The notes under the pieces: model-generated
The model's input: the letters and a program-made list of their open reading frames with translations, nothing else
What the model was told of the DNA's origin: nothing
Database searches by the model: none
NCBI RefSeq assembly: GCF_000151105.2
Contig: NC_014804.1
Location: 682,001-746,000, forward strand
Source of the DNA: Thermococcus barophilus MP
Lineage (GTDB): Archaea > Methanobacteriota_B > Thermococci > Thermococcales > Thermococcaceae
Direction of reading: 5' to 3'
DNA: 64,000 bases
Translations under genes and position numbers: made by a program
Shown: one piece after another, positions 4,211-53,181 of the stretch
Layout: each line of letters begins with the position of its first letter
Numbering within the stretch: the stretch's first letter is position 1

Positions 4211-4855
4211 TCAACCTCCCCCCTGTTTTGCTTTTGCTATGGCTTCAGCTAAGATTTCCTTAAACTGCTCTCTGTCCAACTCATTGTTAACCTCTACCAT
4301 CTCAAGCAGCTGATCAGGCTGTGCTTCAATATTATAGTCTGCCTTTAAGATTTCAACGAGTTTTTGGGGATCGACATCATACATCTCAGCAAGTTGCTCT
4401 AATGTCAAACTCTTCAGCATAGAGCCCGTTATCTCTATTGTTGTGTTATCAACCGTTACCGATATCCCTTCAGATGATGTAGTCTCAGATGTAGTTTCTT
4501 CCTCGGCAGTTAATGCGGCAAATGCAAAATATCCACCAACAAGTACTAAGCTAATTAAGATTAGACTTCCAGCCACTTTAACCCTACTTTTCTTAAATGC
4601 AGATTTAAGCATGACAACCATGCTGTTGAATCCGATTATTAAATGAACTGCCACTAAACCAATCATGACAAATCCCAGATATGTATGTACTGTTTCCCAA
4701 GTGTCCTTAGTTACACCCAAGAACGTCCATCCAATGGCGTCTGCTATTCTGCCTGACGGGGCTTGATAAAGCGCAATTCCAGATACCGCTATGAGTATAA
4801 ACACTACTGTTAAAACTAAGTCAACTGCTCCTCTTAACCACGCTGGTGCCTTCAT
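4211..4855 (-). CDS. DUF4405-type membrane protein, possible heme b binder
   Basis: Residues 8-30, 55-76 and 95-115 are hydrophobic segments, followed by an acidic, probably external domain of about 95 residues. The first part resembles DUF4405, a cytochrome b-like family. H57 and H71 lie 14 residues apart on the second helix, a spacing used for heme b ligation, but a single pair in a small protein is weak evidence. The C-terminal domain contains repeated EQLAEMY/DQLLEMV-like motifs. I preferred the ATG at 4853-4855, five bases after GGTGA; the ATG at 4859-4861 is an alternative. The gene overlaps or abuts its neighbours on both sides. Confidence 0.75.
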   Translation of the reverse strand: MKAPAWLRGAVDLVLTVVFILIAVSGIALYQAPSGRIADAIGWTFLGVTKDTWETVHTYLGFVMIGLVAVHLIIGFNSMVVMLKSAFKKSRVKVAGSLILISLVLVGGYFAFAALTAEEETTSETTSSEGISVTVDNTTIEITGSMLKSLTLEQLAEMYDVDPQKLVEILKADYNIEAQPDQLLEMVEVNNELDREQFKEILAEAIAKAKQGGG

Positions 4856-39149: not shown

Positions 39150-39887
39150 TTAATAAAAGAATAGAACATAAACACCGAGGAGCATTAAGACAAAACCAGC
39201 TATCATTGAAAGTTCCCTTGACCTTCTAACGATTTTTTGGGATAGACTTTTACTTTCGGCTATACTGCTCACTGTAAAAAGGATTATAAGGAGCGGCAGA
39301 ACAAATATGAGGTTATAGAGCCCCAGTAGAATCCAGGTCAATGTTCTTCCAATCTTTGAGATCAAAATCGCATATATAAGATAGCTTCCAGCAGAACACG
39401 GCAGGAGAGTAAATGAAACCATCACACCTAAGGCAAATGCCCCAAACAACGTTGCTTCCTGTCTGAAGATAGATTTTCTGACATTTTTCTTTCCTGCAAC
39501 TCTTGACTTCTCAAAGTATCCGGTAAAGAATGTGTAAAAACCGAAAATTAGAGATACAACTCCCGCTATCCATGTTGGAATGCTCCTTGTAAACACAACA
39601 AGTCCAATTCCAAGGATGTAGTAGGATATGTAAATCGCAACTACAAACGCCATGCCTATTTCATAAATTTTCCTTTTTGAAATTCCCTCTTTGAGCGACA
39701 AGGCAATGAGAAACATGGTATAGATGACAAAGGTGCATGGGTTTATGGAATCTGACACCGCCAGAGAGATAAGGGGGAATATCATCGATTGAAGGTTTAC
39801 GAGAAAAAGCACCAGAATAGTTAGTCCAAAAGATAAAGAAATTATCAACAGAAGGGTTTTGATTTCATCCTTCACTTGGCTCACCAT
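39150..39887 (-). CDS. CcdA/DsbD-like membrane thiol transporter
   Basis: The 245-residue protein has six to seven membrane helices, with a cysteine in the first (C51, SINPCTF) and one in the fourth (C164, LLPCSAG), the two redox cysteines that carry electrons across the membrane in CcdA. The gene overlaps the upstream exported thioredoxin gene by 23 nt. Together they should form a system that reduces extracytoplasmic disulfides. Confidence 0.9.
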   Translation of the reverse strand: MVSQVKDEIKTLLLIISLSFGLTILVLFLVNLQSMIFPLISLAVSDSINPCTFVIYTMFLIALSLKEGISKRKIYEIGMAFVVAIYISYYILGIGLVVFTRSIPTWIAGVVSLIFGFYTFFTGYFEKSRVAGKKNVRKSIFRQEATLFGAFALGVMVSFTLLPCSAGSYLIYAILISKIGRTLTWILLGLYNLIFVLPLLIILFTVSSIAESKSLSQKIVRRSRELSMIAGFVLMLLGVYVLFFY

Positions 39888-41075: not shown

Positions 41076-42295
41076 CACTAATTGTGGGAAAGATCGGCGA
41101 CAACATAATGGAGCGTTTTGAGCTTCCAGGTGTTTTGGGAGAAATTCTGATGGGTATGATTTTGGGGAATCTGATATATTTTGGAGTTATCAGTCCAGAG
41201 TACTTAACTTTACATTCAAATGAAACTTTCGAGTTTTTGGCAAAGCTTGGGATAATCTTCCTGCTCTTCTTGGGAGGTCTTGACACTGACATGGAAATGA
41301 TCAAGAGAACTGGGAAAGTTGCCACGGTCTCCACGCTTATGGGTGTATTTGCTCCCTTAATAATGGGATATTTTGGGCTTAAATTAATGGGATACCCCTC
41401 CAGAGAGGCATTTGCTGGCGGTGTTCTGCTTACAGCAACGAGCATTGGGATAACAGTTAGGGTCATGATGGATTTGGGTGTCTTGAGGAGCGAAGTGGGT
41501 GCAGCGTCGCTGAGTGCAAGTGTTATGGATGACTTTCTGGGCATAGCACTGATAATATTTGCCGTTGGAACAGGTAGCATTTTGGGGTTAATTGGAAAGA
41601 TGACTGCCTTCTTTATAATCACAGGTGTCGTTGCATGGTATTCCATCGATAAATACATCCGATTCTCTGAATGGCTTCATGTAGAAAAAGGTGTCCTGGC
41701 TATGGTTCTGGCGTTAATGTTCCTCTTCTCCGCACTTGCTGAAAAATGGTTCGCAGCTGCAATTGAAGGTGCATTTATGGCGGGCCTTGTTTTATCAAAG
41801 CTTCCAGAAGGGAGAAAAATAGCAGAAGACGTTAAAGCCATCGGATATGGCTTTTTAATCCCAATATTTTTCGTGTACACGGGGGCAATGCTTGATTTAA
41901 AGGTTTTCATGAGTAGAGATGCACTGGCACTGGCAGCAGTTCTAACAAGTATAGCTGTAATAGGAAAGGTAGTCGGAAGGGGAATCGGAGCAATGATGAT
42001 GGGCTGGAACTTTAAGAAATCTCTTCAGATGGGAATAGGATCAATCCCAAGAACTGAAGTTGCTCTCGTTGATCTCATGGTTGCAATTCACGGAGGTGCA
42101 ATACCCCAAAGCGATGCACAAAAGTTTATAGCCGCAACGCTTATTTTCATCACCGTTTCTGTGCTGATAACTCCCCCACTGCTGAAGTGGGCATTTAAAG
42201 AGGATGTTGAGAAAATGAAAAAGGAGAAAGCAGAAATTAGGAAAGAGAAAGTTAAAGAGACTAAAAGAAAAATTGCGGAGATCAGGCAGAGCTGA
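41039..42295 (+). CDS. CPA2-family cation:proton antiporter
   Basis: The 418-residue protein has about 12 membrane helices with the GxLGGxL/M and FLGGLDTD segments, and the ASVMDDFLGI motif (about residue 160) whose aspartates carry the ion in NapA/KefB-like antiporters. A charged Lys/Glu tail of some 30 residues follows the last helix. It is coupled to the CBS protein. It probably exchanges Na+ or K+ for protons. Confidence 0.9.
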   Translation: MEPEWILFTIGVALIVGKIGDNIMERFELPGVLGEILMGMILGNLIYFGVISPEYLTLHSNETFEFLAKLGIIFLLFLGGLDTDMEMIKRTGKVATVSTLMGVFAPLIMGYFGLKLMGYPSREAFAGGVLLTATSIGITVRVMMDLGVLRSEVGAASLSASVMDDFLGIALIIFAVGTGSILGLIGKMTAFFIITGVVAWYSIDKYIRFSEWLHVEKGVLAMVLALMFLFSALAEKWFAAAIEGAFMAGLVLSKLPEGRKIAEDVKAIGYGFLIPIFFVYTGAMLDLKVFMSRDALALAAVLTSIAVIGKVVGRGIGAMMMGWNFKKSLQMGIGSIPRTEVALVDLMVAIHGGAIPQSDAQKFIAATLIFITVSVLITPPLLKWAFKEDVEKMKKEKAEIRKEKVKETKRKIAEIRQS

Positions 42296-42632
42296 GCTTT
42301 TCTTTCACTTTTCTTTCAAATTCCACAAATGGAGGAACTCCAATAAATTCCACCTTGTTGTTTATTAGAATTGTTGGTGTTCCCAAGATGTTATGTTCCA
42401 TTGCCTTTTTTCTTCCTTCTGGAGTCGCAACGCTCAGCTCTTTTACTATCACTCCAGGATGCCTCCTCGCTATCTCTTTAGCCATTTGAAGTGCTATTGG
42501 ACAGTAAGGACATGTTGGTGAGGTAATAACTTCAATAACAACTCTTGGTCCCTTTGGTTTAACCTCAACCATCCCCATCCTCTTCATGAGCTCAAGCATC
42601 TTTTTTCTCCTAATCATCTCAAGCTCGTCCAT
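42282..42632 (-). CDS. Thioredoxin/glutaredoxin-like protein (CPYC)
   Basis: The 116-residue protein has a basic helical N-terminus (residues 1-27), then a thioredoxin fold with CPYC at 41-44 and the cis-Pro of NILGTPTILIN. It is cytoplasmic, with no signal peptide. It overlaps the antiporter 3' end by 14 nt and lies downstream of the isc genes, though with a gap. A general thiol-disulfide role is probable. Confidence 0.85.
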   Translation of the reverse strand: MDELEMIRRKKMLELMKRMGMVEVKPKGPRVVIEVITSPTCPYCPIALQMAKEIARRHPGVIVKELSVATPEGRKKAMEHNILGTPTILINNKVEFIGVPPFVEFERKVKEKLSSA

Positions 42633-42689
42633 GTTCTCACCGAGAAGAGCTTAGAAAAAGGGTTTAAAAAGAAATTGTTGAAGAAAATT

Positions 42690-45498: not shown

Positions 45499-45514
45499 GA
45501 AGGAGGGATTGAAA

Positions 45515-46882
45515 GTGATAAAGGTACCTGAGAATTTAGATATGCTCTGCAACCAGTGTTCGATGAGTTTGGCGGGAGGGTGTACTATAAGGGGAGTCTG
45601 CGGCAAGGATCCTGACCTCAACTCGCTCCAGGAGGCCCTGCTCTACGGCATAAAGGGAACATCGGCCTACTACTACCACGCCCTTGAGGTCGGCTACGAC
45701 GACCCGAGGATAGGCCACTTTTTGGCTGAGGCCCTCTACTCGACCCTGACCAACGTCAACTTCGACAAGAACCGCTTCCTTGAGCTCATCCTTGAGAACG
45801 GAAGGGTTCACCTTGAGGCGATGAAGCTCCTCGATAAGGCCTACGTTGAGACCTTCGGAAGGCCGGAGCCGGTTGAAGTCCCGACCGGAACTGCGGAGGG
45901 ACACAGCATACTCGTCACCGGCCACAGCTACAAAGCTCTCTATGAACTCCTCAGGCAGATCGAGGAGATGAGCCTTGAGGATGAGCTCAAGGTCTACACC
46001 CACGCGGAGATGTTTCCGGCACATGCATACCCCGAGCTGAGGAAGTTCAAAGCGCTCTACGGCAACTGGGGAGGCTCATGGCTCTACCAGAAGAAGGAAT
46101 TCGCGGAGTTCCCGGGCGTCATTCTGGGCACAAGCAACTGTGTCCAGCAGCCGACGAAGGCTTACGCCGACAGAATCTTCACCGTTGGGATAGCGGGCCT
46201 TGAAGGGGTTCGCCACATCGAGGACTACAACTTCGAGCCGCTCATAAAGCGCGCCCTTGAAACCCCCAGGATGGAGGCTTACGACGGCGGAAAGCTCCTC
46301 ACCGGCTTCCACCACGCCAACGTCCTTGCCATGAAGGATAAGCTCATCGAACTCATTCAGGAGGGCAAGATAAGGCACATCTTCGTCGTGGGCGGTTGTG
46401 ACACCCCGCACAAGGGTATGGGGTACTATGAAAAGCTAACCGAGCTGATTCCAAAGGATGCGCTGATACTCTCTGCGGCATGCGGCAAGTTCCGCTACAA
46501 CGCGAGGGACTACGGCACCATTGAGGGCATTCCGCGCTTTTTGGACTTCGGCCAGTGCAACAACGTGTACTCGATAATCGAGATTGCAATAGCACTCGCC
46601 AATGAACTCGGGACGGATGTGAACTCCCTGCCGGTGAGCATAGTCCTGAGCTGGATGGAGCAGAAAGCCATAGCGATACTCTACTCGCTCCTCTACCTGG
46701 GAATCAAGGGCATCTACATCGGACCAAGGCCGCCAGAGTTCCTGACTCCCAATGTGTTTGAGATCCTCAGGAGGCAGTTTGACCTCAGATTAATAAGCGA
46801 TCCAGAAAGAGATTTAAGAGAGATGCTCAACAAAGGTGTAAAAATAGAAGAGGGCTCACCTCTTGCGGAGGAGCTCGACTGA
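45515..46882 (+). CDS. hcp: Hybrid cluster protein (hydroxylamine reductase), short form
   Basis: The 455-residue protein has the N-terminal cluster cysteines C12, C15, C23 and C29, and hybrid-cluster ligands in EGHS/H, GTSNCVQQP, VVGGCDTPH, LSAACGKFRYN and GQCNN segments. It is shorter than the enterobacterial form, lacking an N-terminal helical insert, as in archaeal class III Hcp. Hcp detoxifies NO and hydroxylamine. I chose the GTG at 45515 because GGAGGG is seven bases upstream; the TTG at 45509 overlaps it. About 45600-46790 is distinctly GC-rich (60% in one 60-nt line) compared with its ends and neighbours. Confidence 0.95.
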   Translation: MIKVPENLDMLCNQCSMSLAGGCTIRGVCGKDPDLNSLQEALLYGIKGTSAYYYHALEVGYDDPRIGHFLAEALYSTLTNVNFDKNRFLELILENGRVHLEAMKLLDKAYVETFGRPEPVEVPTGTAEGHSILVTGHSYKALYELLRQIEEMSLEDELKVYTHAEMFPAHAYPELRKFKALYGNWGGSWLYQKKEFAEFPGVILGTSNCVQQPTKAYADRIFTVGIAGLEGVRHIEDYNFEPLIKRALETPRMEAYDGGKLLTGFHHANVLAMKDKLIELIQEGKIRHIFVVGGCDTPHKGMGYYEKLTELIPKDALILSAACGKFRYNARDYGTIEGIPRFLDFGQCNNVYSIIEIAIALANELGTDVNSLPVSIVLSWMEQKAIAILYSLLYLGIKGIYIGPRPPEFLTPNVFEILRRQFDLRLISDPERDLREMLNKGVKIEEGSPLAEELD

Positions 46883-46884
46883 GC

Positions 46885-47370
46885 TCATTCTTTCAATTTT
46901 TTAAGCTTTTCTAATAGTTCCCCGAACTTCTCATCTGAAAGATTGCCCAGTTCTTTGGCCTCTTTCAGTGTTATTGTCTTTGCCAGGGTCTTTCTCAGGG
47001 TCTCATCTTTGAGCGGTGTGAAGCCGTACTCGATGAGCACTTCAAGAGCTTCGGGATACCTCTCTATGAGCATCCCGACGTTTGTGTTCTCGTTTATCTC
47101 GATTTCTTTTGCACACTCCACATCGTCAAGTCCTGAAATTTCCCCGGCACTCCCATCGTTCCATATCCTCAAGATGTAGGCATCTCCAGCTTTTTTCAGC
47201 TCGTGTCTATAGCTCGCCTCCTCAAGCTTTGGGAGGATGCCTTTGAACGGTTTGTCACCTATTGCCTCGATGCCCTCTCCTTCTTTCAGATCCTTCAATG
47301 CCTCAACTATCCTTACAGCAGGTTCCGGGGGGTTTAGCCCCCTCAGGTCCAGCACAGCTTTAATCTCCAT
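46885..47370 (-). CDS. DUF2249 plus DUF1858 protein
   Basis: Residues 1-80 are a TusA-like DUF2249 domain (VLDLRGLNPPEPAVRIVEAL) that has lost the CP cysteine. Residues 95-130 are a DUF1858 domain (INENTNVGMLIERYPEALEVLIEYGF), also found at the N-terminus of ScdA/RIC iron-sulfur repair proteins. The ATG at 47368-47370 follows GGTGAAGCGA. An operator lies between its TATA box and start. It is convergent with hcp and divergent from the FDP operon. A role in Fe-S repair after NO damage is plausible. Confidence 0.85.
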   Translation of the reverse strand: MEIKAVLDLRGLNPPEPAVRIVEALKDLKEGEGIEAIGDKPFKGILPKLEEASYRHELKKAGDAYILRIWNDGSAGEISGLDDVECAKEIEINENTNVGMLIERYPEALEVLIEYGFTPLKDETLRKTLAKTITLKEAKELGNLSDEKFGELLEKLKKLKE

Positions 47371-47390
47371 TCGCTTCACCATAAACCTAT

Positions 47391-47406
47391 AATGACAAGT
47401 GTCATA
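47391..47406. promoter_or_regulatory. Operator at the DUF2249 promoter (ATGACA-AG-TGTCAT)
   Basis: A 6-bp inverted repeat (7-bp arm mismatch only at the outer base) lies just after a GTTTATATG TATA box and 20 nt before the start codon of the DUF2249 gene. Confidence 0.7.
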
Positions 47407-47453
47407 TAAACTTTGCTGGACATGAATGGGTAGAAAGGTTTAAAAGTATTGAA

Positions 47454-47469
47454 TATGACATACGTCATG
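47454..47469. promoter_or_regulatory. Operator at the flavodiiron operon promoter (TATGACA-TA-CGTCATG)
   Basis: A copy with two mismatches in the second arm lies after a GTTTAAAAG TATA-like element (about 47438-47446) and 14 nt before the FDP ATG. It is the weakest of the five copies. Confidence 0.6.
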
Positions 47470-47482
47470 AAGGTGTGTAATT

Positions 47483-48664
47483 ATGAAAGCTGTAAAAATT
47501 GTTGAAGATGTTTACTGGGTTGGAGTTAAAGACTGGAACAGGAGAATTTTTGATTCTCTAATTCCCCTTCCAGAAGGAACTTCATATAATGCCTATCTGG
47601 TAGTAGGAAGAGAAAAAACCGCCCTCATAGACACCGTAAATCCCGGTTTTGAGAGGGAGCTTGAGGAAAAAATAAACGAAATCGTAGATGTAGCCGATAT
47701 TGATTACATAGTGATGAATCACGCCGAGCCCGATCATTCCGGTGCAATTCCATACCTACTGGAGAGAAACAAAAAGGTCATCCTCATTGCAACCGAAAAA
47801 GGCGCGAACATGGCTAAAGCATACTATGATGTCCCCGATGAGAGGATTATGGTAGTGAAGGATGGCGACACCGTCTCGCTGGGAGGGAAGACCCTCAGGT
47901 TCATAGAGGCACCTTGGCTTCACTGGCCGGAGACAATGTTTACCTACCTCGTCGAGGACAAAATACTCTTTCCCTGTGACTTCTTTGGGGCTCACCTTGC
48001 TGGGGGCTTTTACGACGATGACGTGCCCGACCTTCTAACGCACGCCCAGAGGTACTTCGGGGAGATAATGATGCCCTTCTCGGCCATGGCGAAGAAAGCA
48101 CTCAAAAAGATCGAGGGGCTTGAGATTAAGATAATCGCCCCGAGCCACGGCCCGATATACAGGAATCCCAGGAGGATAATCGAGGCGTATAAAAAGTGGA
48201 GCAGTGGAGAGACGAAGGAGAAGGTTATCATAGCCTATGTCAGCATGTGGGGGGCAAACGAGACAATGGTGAGGGAGCTCGCAGCTCTCCTGACCGCTGA
48301 GGGGATAGATGTTAAGGTCTACAACCTCGTGAGCTCGGATATAGGGGAAATCGCTAAAGACCTCGTGGACTCGAGGGTGATAGTTTTAGCAGCTCCCACA
48401 GTCCTTGGAGGTGCCCACCCTCTTGCAATTTATGCCGCATACCTCGTAAAGGCACTTAGACCGCCTGCAAAATATGCAGTGATAATGGGCTCCTATGGGT
48501 GGCACGGGCGAAGTAAAGATTCCCTCCTTGAAGTGCTGAAAGGCTCAAATATAGAGCTCCTCGGGAGCCTTGAGGTTCGTGCGAGGCCGAAGAATGAAGA
48601 TTATGAAAAGCTCCGCAGGCTTGCGCTTCTTATTCAAGAAAAGGTTAGGGGTGATGCTGAATGA
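47483..48664 (+). CDS. Flavodiiron protein (NO/O2 reductase, FprA-like)
   Basis: The 393-residue protein has an MBL-type di-iron domain (H80, E82, D84, H85 in NHAEPDHSG; H147; D166; a later PSHGP histidine) followed by a flavodoxin domain (about residues 250-390). FDPs reduce O2 to water or NO to N2O using FMN and di-iron. It heads an operon with the DUF438, cupin and M24 genes, under a regulated promoter. Its middle (about 47860-48420) is more GC-rich than its ends. Confidence 0.95.
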   Translation: MKAVKIVEDVYWVGVKDWNRRIFDSLIPLPEGTSYNAYLVVGREKTALIDTVNPGFERELEEKINEIVDVADIDYIVMNHAEPDHSGAIPYLLERNKKVILIATEKGANMAKAYYDVPDERIMVVKDGDTVSLGGKTLRFIEAPWLHWPETMFTYLVEDKILFPCDFFGAHLAGGFYDDDVPDLLTHAQRYFGEIMMPFSAMAKKALKKIEGLEIKIIAPSHGPIYRNPRRIIEAYKKWSSGETKEKVIIAYVSMWGANETMVRELAALLTAEGIDVKVYNLVSSDIGEIAKDLVDSRVIVLAAPTVLGGAHPLAIYAAYLVKALRPPAKYAVIMGSYGWHGRSKDSLLEVLKGSNIELLGSLEVRARPKNEDYEKLRRLALLIQEKVRGDAE

Positions 48665-49998
48665 CCGAACTCCTAAAAAACCGTGAATATAAGAAAGAAA
48701 AAATGAAAGAACTTTTGAAGAAAATCCACAGCGGCGAGGATGTTGAAAAGCTCAAGGAGGAGTTTAAGGAACTCTTAAGGAGCATTTCTCCCCTTGAAAT
48801 ACCTCTCATTGAACAGGAGCTCGTTAAGGAAGGCATTTCAGCGAGGGACATAGCTAAGATGTGCGACATCCATGTTGAGCTCTTCAGAGAAGCAGTCGCT
48901 GGTGTTGAAAAGGAGGAAATAAAGGATATCCCCCCTGGACATCCTCTCCATACGCTCTATGAGGAGAACAGGGAAATAATGAAAGATGCGGAAATGCTGA
49001 ATCTCTATGCATCCACTCTCGCAAACACGAAGGATGAGAAGATGAGACAGGAAATTCTTGGTGTTCTCAAAGGAATAGCCAACCAACTCAGAGCTGTTGG
49101 TTTTACCCACTACAACAGGGAAGAGATGCTTATCTTCCCATACCTTGAGAGGAGAGGGATTACAGCTGTTCCAACAGTACTCTGGACAAAGCATGATGAG
49201 ATAAGAGCAATGATAAAGCAGCTAATCGAAATATTAAACAGAGAAAACGAAATGGAGTGGGAGCAATTTGTAAGTAAAGTGAAAGAAAAAGCCTCAGAAC
49301 TTTCAAGAGCTTTAGTTGACATGGTGTTCAGGGAAAACAACATACTGTATCCAACATTGAAAGCCCTGCTCTCCGAGGGAGAGTGGGTTGCCATTAAGCA
49401 GCAGGAAGAGGCAATAGGGTATTACAAAGTTAAGCCCGGAGATGAGTGGAAGCCAAGGGCAAAGCCTCTTCATCCTTATGAGATTGACCCAACCTTAACA
49501 GCTGAACAGATTTTGAGCCTACCAAAGGAAGTTCAGATGGCACTGAGGGGACAGAAGCTTGAAGGAGACAGAACTAAAGTAAAGAGGGAAGGCGACTTGG
49601 AGTTAGACACTGGCTATCTCTCACCAAAAGAAATAAACGCGATTTTCAAGCATCTTCCAGTTGATATAACCTTCATAGACAAAGATGATAGGGTGAGGTT
49701 TTTCTCAGGCGGGGACAGAATATTCACAAGAACACCCTCAGTTATCGGAAGACCTGTACAGCTCTGCCATCCACCGAAAAGTGTTCATGTAGTAAACAAG
49801 ATTCTTAGGGCTTTTAAGGAGGGCAAAAAAGACGTTGCAGAGTTTTGGATTCAGATGGGGGGGAGATTTATACATATCCGCTATTTTGCGGTCAGAGATG
49901 AAAATGGAGAGTACTTGGGAACACTTGAAGTTGTTCAAGATGTGACTGAAATCAGAAAACTTGAAGGAGAGAAAAGGCTTTTAGACTGGAGGGACTAA
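48661..49998 (+). CDS. DUF438-hemerythrin-PAS protein
   Basis: The 445-residue protein has an N-terminal DUF438 domain (about 1-80, HSGEDVEKLKEEFKELL), a hemerythrin-like domain (about 95-245; HTLYEENREI, FTHYNREEMLIFPYLE, TKHDEI and NNILYPTL give the metal-binding His/Glu) and a PAS domain (about 320-440; LPVDITFIDKDDRVRFFSGGD). Hemerythrins bind O2 or NO; PAS domains sense ligands. It overlaps the FDP by four bases, so it probably senses or delivers gas to it. Confidence 0.9.
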   Translation: MTELLKNREYKKEKMKELLKKIHSGEDVEKLKEEFKELLRSISPLEIPLIEQELVKEGISARDIAKMCDIHVELFREAVAGVEKEEIKDIPPGHPLHTLYEENREIMKDAEMLNLYASTLANTKDEKMRQEILGVLKGIANQLRAVGFTHYNREEMLIFPYLERRGITAVPTVLWTKHDEIRAMIKQLIEILNRENEMEWEQFVSKVKEKASELSRALVDMVFRENNILYPTLKALLSEGEWVAIKQQEEAIGYYKVKPGDEWKPRAKPLHPYEIDPTLTAEQILSLPKEVQMALRGQKLEGDRTKVKREGDLELDTGYLSPKEINAIFKHLPVDITFIDKDDRVRFFSGGDRIFTRTPSVIGRPVQLCHPPKSVHVVNKILRAFKEGKKDVAEFWIQMGGRFIHIRYFAVRDENGEYLGTLEVVQDVTEIRKLEGEKRLLDWRD

Positions 49999-50000
49999 AT

Positions 50001-50312
50001 GTGATTGTTGTAAAAGTGGGAGAGGCTGAGCGAATTGACAACCCTCATGGGGTTGATGTTAAAAAGCTGATTGGTATGGAGAATGTCCAGATACTCCACG
50101 TAACCCTGAAGCCTGGGGAGGGGCTTAAAAAGCACGCCACTCCTGTGGATGCCTTCCTGTACGTCATAAAGGGCAAAGGGATGGTTGAAGTTGGGGATGA
50201 AAAAGAAGAGGTTAGGAAGGCAACCCTCGTTTACCTTCCAAAGGAGGTCCCCCACAGCGTTGAGAACACGGGAAGTCTGGAGATGAAGTTCCTTGTGATT
50301 AAGGTGGGGTAA
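50001..50312 (+). CDS. Small cupin protein
   Basis: The 103-residue single-domain cupin has LKPGEGLKKHATPVDAFLYVIKGKG with H, and a later PKEVPHSVENTG histidine; the metal set is incomplete (Ala where a second His is usual). It starts with GTG at 50001, eight bases after GGAGGG. It ends where the M24-like gene begins, so it is co-translated. In this operon it may bind a metal or small ligand. Confidence 0.85.
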   Translation: MIVVKVGEAERIDNPHGVDVKKLIGMENVQILHVTLKPGEGLKKHATPVDAFLYVIKGKGMVEVGDEKEEVRKATLVYLPKEVPHSVENTGSLEMKFLVIKVG

Positions 50313-51410
50313 ATGAGGGAAAAAGCAGAGATATTTAAAAAGAGAGTTGAGAAGTTTCAAAGGCTCTTAAAGGAAAACGAGATAGATGGAGCCGTTATAA
50401 GGACACTCTCCACCTTTATTTACTTTACAGGTACCAAATGGCTTCGCCCGAGCCTCCTCATTCCTGCAGAAGGGGAGCCGGTAGTTATTGTTGCCAAAGG
50501 TGAAAAGGAACTATTTATGCAAAAGAGCTGGATTGAGAACGTTAAGGAGTTCCAAAAGACGGAAGACCTGATGGCAATGGTGACGATGTGGATTGCAAAG
50601 AACGGCTACAGCACCATCGGCATGGAGTTCTCCATCGAGAGGGATGCCTACATTCTGTTCTATGAGCTTTTCAAAAAGCTCAATCCGGGAGTGCAGATCG
50701 AAGACATCAGGCACCTTTCAATGCAGCTGAGGATGATAAAGGACGACTGGGAGCTTGAGAACATAAGAAAAGCGGGAAAAATTGCGGTAAAGGGAATGGA
50801 AGTGGCAATGGAGGAGATAAAGCCCGGGAAGAGCGAGCTTGAGATAGCTGCCGAGATTTACCGTGAGCTGATGCTCAACGGGAGCGAGGACCCGAAGGTC
50901 TATGTATCCGCAACACCGAGGGCACATGCCGAGCCCTTTAGAGACGTTAGGGTTGAGAAGGGCAGGTTTGTAACCGTGGTAATTGGCGCCGACTACAACC
51001 ATTATTATGCAAACCTGACGAGGAGCTTTTTCATCGGAGAGCCAAACGAGAGAGCAAAGAACGCCATTGAGGCAATGGAAGAAGTTCACAAAATCGCTTT
51101 GGAAAAGACCCTGCCAGGAGTAACTTTTTCCAGAGTGGAGAGAGACATAGCTGCGGTTTACAGGGAGAAGGGACTCCAAGAATACTATATAACAGGATAC
51201 ACACACGGAGTTGGACTGCTGATTGAGGAGGACCCAATAACAACCATAGTAGTTCCCCACAGGGCAATGAAAGCACGAGAAGGAATGGCGCTGGCGATTG
51301 TGCATGCACCGCTCATGGTTCCAGAGGGTGCAGTAAAGAAGGAAGACACTGTGATACTTGGCAAAAAGGTTGAAAATGTTACTCCTTTTGAGGCACCCGT
51401 GTTTCTTTAG
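50313..51410 (+). CDS. M24 fold (Xaa-Pro peptidase-like) protein lacking metal ligands
   Basis: The 365-residue protein has the prolidase layout: a creatinase-like N-domain (1-125) and a pita-bread domain. Of the five metal ligands of prolidase, only two remain (H298 in THGVG, E344 in KKEDTV). The two aspartates are V223 and N234, and the other glutamate is A332. It is probably not a metallopeptidase and may be a creatinase-like hydrolase or a binding protein. It closes the FDP operon. The DNA is locally GC-rich. Confidence 0.8.
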   Translation: MREKAEIFKKRVEKFQRLLKENEIDGAVIRTLSTFIYFTGTKWLRPSLLIPAEGEPVVIVAKGEKELFMQKSWIENVKEFQKTEDLMAMVTMWIAKNGYSTIGMEFSIERDAYILFYELFKKLNPGVQIEDIRHLSMQLRMIKDDWELENIRKAGKIAVKGMEVAMEEIKPGKSELEIAAEIYRELMLNGSEDPKVYVSATPRAHAEPFRDVRVEKGRFVTVVIGADYNHYYANLTRSFFIGEPNERAKNAIEAMEEVHKIALEKTLPGVTFSRVERDIAAVYREKGLQEYYITGYTHGVGLLIEEDPITTIVVPHRAMKAREGMALAIVHAPLMVPEGAVKKEDTVILGKKVENVTPFEAPVFL

Positions 51411-51474: not shown

Positions 51475-52041
51475 TTAATCTACAAAGATAACATGGAGCA
51501 CAAGAATAATGTACATGACAACAGTCCAAGCGATGTGGAACTCCCTCCACCTTCTGAATTTTTTTAACGCTTCTTTCAGGTAGGGGTTACTGATTTCTCT
51601 CCTCAGCTTTTCAACCTTCGCATGAAGATAACGCCCATAGAAACCACTTATGTTTTCAATGAGCAGTATGAAACCGAGTAAAAGACCGGTTAGGCCAGCA
51701 GGTGTGCTGTAGTCCTGGCACGATATGAAGTGAGGTAGGGTCATGAGCGAGCCCAGAATCACTAATAGGTGGTGTATGTCGAGCAGGGAAAGCGGGGCAC
51801 GGAGCCTTAAAAAGGGCATTTCCGGATTCACAGCAATGAAAAAATGCCCCTTTTTGTATTCTATGAAAGGTGTTCTCTTGACTACAGAATAGAGGACTAT
51901 TCCAGCGGTTATCACAGCAAATCCCACCTCTGCAAGTCCTCCAAATTGGGCTTCCTCACTCTCATAATCATCGTCTGCAGCGACCAGCGGCAGAACTATG
52001 AGCATAATAAAGAGTACCACTATCATCTTGTTTTTTTGCAT
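51475..52041 (-). CDS. Predicted di-heme membrane cytochrome-like protein (188 aa)
   Basis: The protein starts with a signal peptide or helix (residues 6-22), then has about four membrane helices. Two histidine pairs lie 14 residues apart within them: H90/H104 and H169/H183, the spacing used for heme b ligation in cytochrome b and b561-like proteins. No CxxCH is seen. I chose the ATG at 52039-52041, which follows GGTGAGG. A TTGAGGTACCTCAA palindrome lies upstream. Thermococcales usually lack cytochromes, so heme binding needs a test. Confidence 0.65.
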   Translation of the reverse strand: MQKNKMIVVLFIMLIVLPLVAADDDYESEEAQFGGLAEVGFAVITAGIVLYSVVKRTPFIEYKKGHFFIAVNPEMPFLRLRAPLSLLDIHHLLVILGSLMTLPHFISCQDYSTPAGLTGLLLGFILLIENISGFYGRYLHAKVEKLRREISNPYLKEALKKFRRWREFHIAWTVVMYIILVLHVIFVD

Positions 52042-52093: not shown

Positions 52094-52909
52094 CTAAAAA
52101 GCTCCGCTTCCGATTCCACAGATTTTTGCAAATGGACAGTTCTCACAGTTCTCAGTGTAAGGCTTAAGGTAGGGTTCTCCCTTTATCTGCTTCGTGATTT
52201 CCTTGGCTTTCTTCATGTCCTCATCGTCACCTTCCAAAACCAAAGTTACGCTCCCTTCTGCTCCTCCCGCTCCTCCAGCAGCTATTGGAATTGCATCAAC
52301 GTTAGCCAAGATGTCATATGCTTCAACCTCAGTTACTGGAACTGCATGGGGAATTGGCACCAGTGCAGAGTAAAGCCCAGTTCCCCAATCAAATGAGTGA
52401 ATTCCTGTTATTTTTGCACTGTATTCAACGGGAGTTGGAACAAACTTCTCAAGGCTTATTGGGGTAATCGTTAAGACGCCTTTTGTTATTGTCCACCCAA
52501 ATGTCCTGCCTATTGTTCCTCCATCTGGAGCTGCTGCGAAAACTGCGACGTTCCAGTTCGGATCAATTGCGTTTGCCCCTTTAATGAAAACATCTTCTGG
52601 TCCCATCTCTTTCAGCGCCTCCACTGGATCGCCTTCAAAGGGTTTCCCTTTGTAGAGGACAAGATGCTTGGGCCAGGTTTTCTTCGGCGTGACACATGTT
52701 CTCCCTTTGCTTATAACTCCAACAGTCCACTTCTCCTTCTCAATTTTCTTCCCCAAAATCTCCTCTGCAATGTATGCCGCTGTAGTACCTGTTGCAATGT
52801 AAACAAAGCCGTGCTTTAATGCATATTGAACTTCATCTAAGGCAACAACCGCTTTGGCAATTAAGCGCTTGCTTTCTGGAGGAGTAAGAGTCACCAGCGC
52901 TCTCATCAT
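52094..52909 (-). CDS. Conserved archaeal protein with C-terminal Cys cluster (271 aa)
   Basis: Residues 1-200 form a Rossmann-like domain with FVYIATGTTAAYIAEEIL, VFAAAPDGGTIGRTFGWT and AVPVTEVEAYDIL. A ferredoxin-like part with AAGGAGGAEGSVTLVLEGD follows, and the C-terminus has C-x2-C-x5-C in ENCENCPFAKICG. The cysteine group may bind an Fe-S cluster. The ATG at 52907-52909 follows GGTGATAGAG. I do not recognise a named function. Confidence 0.7.
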   Translation of the reverse strand: MMRALVTLTPPESKRLIAKAVVALDEVQYALKHGFVYIATGTTAAYIAEEILGKKIEKEKWTVGVISKGRTCVTPKKTWPKHLVLYKGKPFEGDPVEALKEMGPEDVFIKGANAIDPNWNVAVFAAAPDGGTIGRTFGWTITKGVLTITPISLEKFVPTPVEYSAKITGIHSFDWGTGLYSALVPIPHAVPVTEVEAYDILANVDAIPIAAGGAGGAEGSVTLVLEGDDEDMKKAKEITKQIKGEPYLKPYTENCENCPFAKICGIGSGAF

Positions 52910-53181
52910 CTCTATCACCATGTCAAAATTGGTGAGCAGGTTTTATTAATATTGTGAAAAAACTTTCAAAGCAATCAGGAGGTATATGGTATTTTGTCAA
53001 GTTATTTGAACTTCTTCATCCAAAAATCAGCTTTTTATATTTCCTTCAAATGAAAATTAAAATTCTGACTTAATCTTTGGCAAGACTCTGAAATAAAAAG
53101 CCTCTAAAAATAAAAAATGTAAATAGTTGTAAACAAAGCGGTTGATGATTTCCTTCATATACCATGGGCTCCCAGCATGTC

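Follow-up and report, generated by a model that had tools for sequence, protein, structure and literature searches.

In cytochrome b of the bc1 complex, the second and the fourth of four helices run in parallel and each carries an HX13H motif, and helix 3 contains glycines spaced 14 residues apart; helix residues at this spacing share nearly one face. HX13H motifs also occur in a membrane helix of the DUF4405 proteins (PF14358; arCOG04002), which one study places in the cytochrome b family, as a group that is expanded in Thermococci and fused to cytochrome b5 in Thermococcus barophilus (PMC5898192). Heme b binding in vitro is described for bacterial DUF4405 and for FezC, the latter being tied to iron (PMC11334425).

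The window analyzed here, a 64,000-nucleotide stretch of the T. barophilus MP genome (G000), contains on its minus strand a gene (positions 51475–52041; hereafter T) for a predicted di-heme b-type membrane cytochrome of 188 amino acids. Its ATG start at 52041 is the approximate start in most homologs; the list of open reading frames gives an alternative GTG start at 52146, which overlaps the neighboring gene 3. The protein combines a probable signal peptide (residues 1–22) with helices at about residues 34–54, 86–107, 114–147 and 153–187. Its histidines occupy positions 66, 90, 91, 104, 140, 169 and 183; two HX13H pairs, H90/H104 in the hydrophobic stretch ~83–106 and H169/H183 in ~166–186, confirm the 14-residue spacing within membrane helices from which the original prediction had started. 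The gene is unannotated, no title or abstract opening was found that names its family, and heme binding is predicted from the sequence itself. Neither Pfam nor NCBIfam returned a match over cut-off for the T protein; DUF4405 reached 11.7 bits, below its gathering cut-off of 26.7, and for prokaryotic cytochrome b561 (PF01292), likewise below its curated cut-off, no match to the window protein was listed. When 21 members of the family were scanned at E ≤ 1, these same two Pfam families were matched by the most members (DUF4405 by 9/21, best E 0.0027; cytochrome b561 by 6/21, best E 0.0026), all of the matches being weak. The lowest E-value in the 21 members, 0.0012, was to a transporter family, and assignment of T to a known Pfam or NCBIfam family was rejected. 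FezC, MsrQ and ferric-reductase-like cytochromes resemble T as small bis-His membrane cytochromes, and an SpNOX chain is found at a VIA-align Z-score of 8.7; yet neither the Pfam nor the NCBIfam matches listed for T include any of these families.

The four paired histidines are invariant in all 35 distinct full-length homologs (28–98% pairwise identity), which were drawn from 44 loci covering 150 or more model positions, partial copies being left out; they are equally invariant in the 21 full-length sequences of a first, smaller alignment. The other histidines are less constant (H91 kept in 33/35, H140 in 22/35, H66 in 1/35). Altogether 23 of 185 columns are invariant, including four of the seven histidines (hypergeometric p = 0.005); among the 19 others are G40, G47, G97, Y111, G116, G119, N130, G133, G136, R137 and W165, and C108 is kept in 34/35 homologs. 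The double motif is also rare: two hydrophobic HX13H motifs were found in 31 of 810 non-redundant open reading frames, all of them T family members, and a single one in 22, of which 20 came from loci fetched for DUF4405 and two from elsewhere; 191 of the 810 have two or more hydrophobic peaks. Since this sample was mostly fetched for the T and DUF4405 families, only the near-absence of the double motif elsewhere is informative.

Mean net charges over the 35 sequences (with region edges shifted by one residue) are −5.1 for the N-terminus, +3.5 for loop 1, −0.5 for loop 2 and +8.1 for loop 3; by the positive-inside rule, this would leave the N-terminus outside and place loops 1 and 3 on the inner side, with helices 2 and 4 both running from inside to outside. 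Because these helices would be parallel, H90 (51772–51774, minus strand) and H169 (51535–51537, minus strand) are the predicted heme ligands near the cytoplasm, and H104 (51730–51732, minus strand) and H183 (51493–51495, minus strand) those near the outside. The loop charges thus suggest a two-heme layout as in cytochrome b, in which G119 and G133 of the antiparallel helix 3 would sit at the same two depths as the histidine pairs. What is found, then, is conservation of the candidate ligands and a predicted placement of each pair at one depth, rather than the variable histidines or the ligands on opposite sides of the membrane that would be at odds with the original prediction.

With the N-terminal domain of cytochrome b from bc1 and b6f complexes, T shares the four predicted helices, the HX13H motifs in helices 2 and 4, and the helix-3 glycines 14 residues apart; it differs in its length of only 188 residues, in having neither a second domain nor, by inspection, a PEWY motif, and in having no sequence relative in the PDB, where an hmmsearch with the family up to E = 10 gave a single hit, FXYD6. 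An AlphaFold2 model of the apo protein places helices at 86–107, 114–147 and 153–187 with moderate confidence (mean pLDDT 76.5; block means of 71–93 from residue 81 onward). A Foldseek search with this model gave nothing at E = 0.001 and listed mostly unrelated or designed bundles. VIA-align listed cytochrome b6, chains of the designed di-heme protein 4D2, and also many unrelated bundles that scored equally high or higher; the four cytochrome b6 rows have Z-scores of 9.6–10.6 over 132–139 residues, which lie in the chance range for helix bundles, where about 13 is wanted. The structural matches of the model to known folds are suggestive only. An internal duplication of the two HX13H hairpins was considered but not supported, the score of the N-terminal against the C-terminal half (14.1) falling within the shuffled range (95% at 16.5).

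A further comparison with DUF4405 concerns the C-terminal half of T. Aligned by hhalign against 19 Thermococcaceae DUF4405 proteins, this half scores 24.4 with both histidines in register, H169 with the first and H183 with the second DUF4405 histidine, at an HHalign probability of only 26%; 200 block-shuffled controls average 11.4 with a maximum of 19.2, and the reversed sequence scores 12.8. The N-terminal half gives no signal against DUF4405 (14.2). The C-terminal hairpin of T resembles a family already called cytochrome b in Thermococci (PMC5898192), and the two have in common an HX13H motif in a membrane helix; unlike DUF4405, T has two HX13H helices per chain and a probable signal peptide. 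The window also contains a genuine DUF4405 protein (4211–4855, minus strand; E = 8.5e-17), near an aldehyde:ferredoxin oxidoreductase-like gene (named by eye); its histidine pair H57/H71, again with HX13H spacing, had been noticed in the original prediction and is invariant in the 19/19 Thermococcaceae homologs aligned. Conservation, the spacing of the motifs, the topology prediction and the hairpin that resembles DUF4405 together support well the prediction of T as a di-heme b-type membrane cytochrome.

The original prediction had placed this cytochrome in an order that is generally regarded as not making heme and that usually lacks cytochromes, a premise that is half right. ALAD (PF00490) was found in none of the 61 Thermococcaceae searched (G000–G060), against 19 of all 101 genomes, and the part of a table available from PMC3004389 has dashes for three Pyrococcus and four Thermococcus in gene columns whose headings lie outside that part; both sources support the absence of heme synthesis in Thermococcales. 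AhbD (TIGR04545) passed its cut-off in 0 of 61 genomes searched, 37 of them Thermococcaceae, which is weaker evidence because only one of 14 control genomes passes. An AhbD-like radical SAM protein of T. barophilus (243 bits against a cut-off of 500) is encoded in what appears, by eye, to be a hydrogenase maturation cluster, and was not counted as a heme synthesis enzyme. Ferrochelatase was found in 2/37 Thermococcaceae searched (G017 and G036) and not in the window genome. Since these searches revealed no heme-synthesis pathway, the window organism should need external heme; its genome has two FecCD-type permeases of no assigned substrate. The claim that the order usually lacks cytochromes was, in contrast, too strong: DUF4405 is matched (E ≤ 0.001) in 29/37 Thermococcaceae and at four places in the window genome, a cytochrome b5 domain occurs in 19/94 Thermococcaceae, and CydA of cytochrome bd in 18/94, all of one genus; a 2009 report describes CydAB in T. 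gammatolerans (PMC2718504).

The cytochrome bd genes lie in an island (L121:5797–19077 in G036, L120:5745–19021 in G017, and L135–L141). All nine cydAB loci examined, out of the 18 CydA genomes, combine a ferrochelatase homolog (over the TIGR00109 cut-off in L121) with an SQR-like flavoprotein and a polyprenyl synthase-like gene, as judged by eye; seven of the nine also contain a radical SAM gene (TIGR04053 in L121), a FecCD permease, a flavodoxin-like gene (by eye), an ABC ATPase and two substrate-binding proteins, one of which has IsdE as its best, sub-cut-off match. The contig of L139 breaks off behind the radical SAM gene, and L135 has none of the extra genes apart from an ABC match at 34%. 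The ALAD search covered six of the nine genomes and found no ALAD in them. The island looks like a system for porphyrin or heme salvage that feeds the oxidase; as these loci carry ferrochelatase, six of them in ALAD-less genomes, it is suggested that some Thermococcus obtain porphyrin or heme externally. Cytochrome bd shows no association with T (9/18 genomes, p = 0.16), and was dropped as a candidate partner.

A first sequence search found relatives of T in 24/101 genomes and 6/31 genera. A profile built from 21 sequences matched 41/115 genomes of the phylum; 39 were retained, all of them Thermococcaceae (39/94), and two candidates for an occurrence outside this family, G079 (E = 6.5e-4; a partial match in another family) and G027 (E = 0.009), were dropped as weak. 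A scan of genome contigs gave four loci, all in Thermococcus. In these searches the T family was found only in Thermococcaceae, and within them it is dispensable, since 55/94 genomes have no detectable copy and four have a broken or partial one (G002, G004, G024, G132); the gene is intact in 35 of the 39 genomes, the copy of G056 having no recognizable signal peptide. The disrupted or partial copies, at L037, L053, L054 and L111, point to repeated loss.

The genomic context of T was surveyed in 38 loci, including four broken copies, L105–L111 with short flanks, and L038, which is cut by a contig end. Directly upstream of T, across a gap of 52 bases, lies gene 3 (52094–52921, minus strand; 275 aa), a possible operon partner that is found upstream on the same strand within at most 250 bases in 24/38 loci. 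Gene 3 matches no family over cut-off, and shows a remote likeness to ribose-5-phosphate isomerase (E = 0.002) and a C-terminal CxxCPFAxxCG motif; its predicted structure has a pLDDT of 51.8. It is 82–96% identical within the Thermococcaceae and ~32–43% identical to relatives in other archaea, and it also occurs in genomes without T. Downstream of T, a small thioredoxin gene (PF13192) follows on the same strand at 64–76 bases in 20/38 loci, many of them in Thermococcus; in these 20 loci, the other strand carries a gene for a CcdA-like membrane protein in 18 and a secreted thioredoxin gene in 17. The window homologs of the small thioredoxin (42291–42635, minus strand, end approximate; 76%) and of the CcdA-like protein found near T in other Thermococcus (39162–39872, minus strand, G000:C1:721162–721872; 56%, assigned by eye, the query having no Pfam match) lie ~9 and ~12 kb from T. 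On the opposite, plus strand, the convergent neighbor of T is an M24-type peptidase-like gene (50313–51410; named by eye), and beyond it lies a stress gene set consisting of a DUF438-hemerythrin-PAS protein (48661–49998), a flavodiiron-type protein (47483–48664; named by eye from its sequence) and a hybrid-cluster-protein-like (HCP-like) gene (45509–46882; named by eye).

Cytochrome b5 and the iron permease FTR1 provide signals that are more specific for T than these stress neighbors; the p-values given for them, like the one for cytochrome bd, ignore shared ancestry. Of the 19 genomes that encode a cytochrome b5 domain, 16 have T (Fisher p = 3.9e-6); for b5 genomes at least 90% complete, the counts are 11/12 inside the largest genus and 5/6 outside. 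The co-occurrence is also seen within FTR1-bearing genomes (15/18, p = 0.0009). FTR1 itself occurs in 41/94 genomes; these include 22/35 genomes with an intact T (p = 0.0036) and 18/19 b5 genomes. In eight of 25 genomes having both, FTR1 lies within ~5 kb of T or its remnant (G010, G005, G009, G002, G004, G132, G133, G052), and within 20 kb in 11/25, contig breaks occurring in others; in 5/38 loci it is convergent with T within 23 bases. Two contexts can be distinguished, one next to gene 3 or the stress genes, the other in loci that show no gene 3 (G132, G133, G052); in the window genome, FTR1 is ~490 kb from T. In ten gene 3 loci from genomes without T, the 13 kb fetched contained no FTR1. 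Genus g6 includes five T-less genomes with FTR1 at ~10–22 kb from gene 3, so the looser proximity is partly regional; for this reason, and because of the contig breaks, the argument rests on the eight genomes with FTR1 within ~5 kb.

The b5 domain of the window genome (C1:1224982–1225194) is situated behind a DUF4405-like hairpin with an HX13H motif (H49/H63); its own part of the fusion contains H154 and H177, which we take to be the two heme-ligand histidines. This b5-DUF4405 fusion (L149:6617–7240) is encoded in the same genome as T and, like it, predicted to be a membrane heme protein; in contrast to T, with its two HX13H helices and no b5 domain, it has one HX13H helix and a b5 domain. In five more genomes, DUF4405 and b5 lie side by side, judging from their coordinates. 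The fusion closes a gene series (L149:3025–7240; G000:C1:1221024–1225239) in the order DUF302, CoA-binding protein, FTR1 iron permease, peroxiredoxin, regulator and b5-DUF4405 fusion; some genes of this module also occur near T in several relatives.

The reading preferred here, with a probability of roughly 0.58, is that T is a transmembrane electron conduit that runs on scavenged heme and probably takes part in iron or stress redox. After the signal peptide, the four helices would form a bundle in which helices 2 and 4, each with its HX13H motif, are parallel; of two hemes b, the one near the cytoplasm would be ligated by H90 and H169, the one near the outside by H104 and H183. The invariant glycines, G119 and G133 at their 14-residue spacing in helix 3 and G40 and G47 in helix 1, would leave space for the hemes; the invariant R137 and W165 at the inner face, and Y111 and C108 at the outer face, may contact the hemes or partner proteins. 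Electrons would then cross the membrane along the two hemes as along a wire, and the preferred job, in iron handling, would be to link the cytoplasm by redox exchange to an extracytoplasmic partner such as the FTR1 permease or the cytochrome b5-DUF4405 protein. As no synthesis pathway was found, the heme would come from outside. For this scheme we infer heme binding, from sequence features, as well as the direction of electron flow, the partners and heme import.

The main rival to the iron-related job, though not to the chemistry of T, is a di-heme cytochrome that serves the adjacent NO/O2 stress response, for instance by donating electrons at the membrane for defense against oxygen or nitric oxide. 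The proximity noted in the original prediction is conserved: in 31 T loci with ~6 kb on each side (one side less in L038), HCP-like or hemerythrin-PAS genes lie within ~6 kb of T in 26 (hemerythrin-PAS in 23, HCP-like in 21), across genera and in both arrangements, and the FTR1-b5 locus of the window genome includes a peroxiredoxin. This proximity is, however, independent of T. Among 11 genomes with gene 3 and no trace of T, ten were evaluated, and in all ten gene 3 has HCP-like or hemerythrin-PAS genes as neighbors, joined in two of them by the CcdA-like and secreted thioredoxin genes. The set of HCP-like, hemerythrin-PAS, cupin and M24 genes (45509–51410 in the window; L153–L162) keeps its place next to gene 3 in different genera, whether T is present or absent. 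Gene 3, the stress genes and thioredoxin are thus best seen as a conserved region with T as a variable member, and the T-less control weakens every functional argument drawn from gene 3, stress or thioredoxin neighbors; thioredoxin was dropped as a T-specific partner in the light of this control. In the window, moreover, the stress genes are convergent with T on the opposite strand and share no operon with it, five of the 31 loci are without them, and flavodiiron enzymes take their electrons from rubredoxin. A dedicated stress role is rather unlikely.

The chemistry itself would be different if the histidines of T bound no heme and served another metal, or quinone or proton handling, in heme-less cells. 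The missing ALAD fits this idea, as does the retention of T in genomes without ferrochelatase or cytochrome bd, the window genome included. Against it stand the cytochrome b layout, with two parallel HX13H helices and matching helix-3 glycines, the co-occurrence of T with a b5 domain whose copy in T. barophilus keeps both presumed ligand histidines, and the cydAB loci, where ferrochelatase in nine of nine suggests a supply of external porphyrin or heme even in genomes without ALAD; a heme-free T appears quite improbable. The same holds, even more strongly, for a decaying, functionless remnant that is merely carried along by linkage. Broken and partial copies in four genomes and the lack of a copy in more than half of the family could be read in this way, but the substitution rates make it very unlikely indeed: dN/dS is 0.063–0.143 in five intact pairs (Nei–Gojobori script; a sixth pair is saturated), T is under purifying selection, and its four putative ligand histidines do not vary.

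As a more specific and rather doubtful extension of the preferred electron-conduit reading, T, the b5-DUF4405 protein and FTR1 might together form a heme wire that runs on heme of neighboring organisms and reduces or oxidizes iron at the cell surface, and relatives might import porphyrin and finish the heme with ferrochelatase for their cytochrome bd. Thermococcus and Pyrococcus are widely used models of heme-free life. If the preferred reading is true, the existence of a conserved two-heme protein in an ALAD-less family would imply that vent communities include organisms using heme as a scavenged cofactor, and that archaeal surface redox chemistry in the Thermococcaceae can depend on such scavenged heme.
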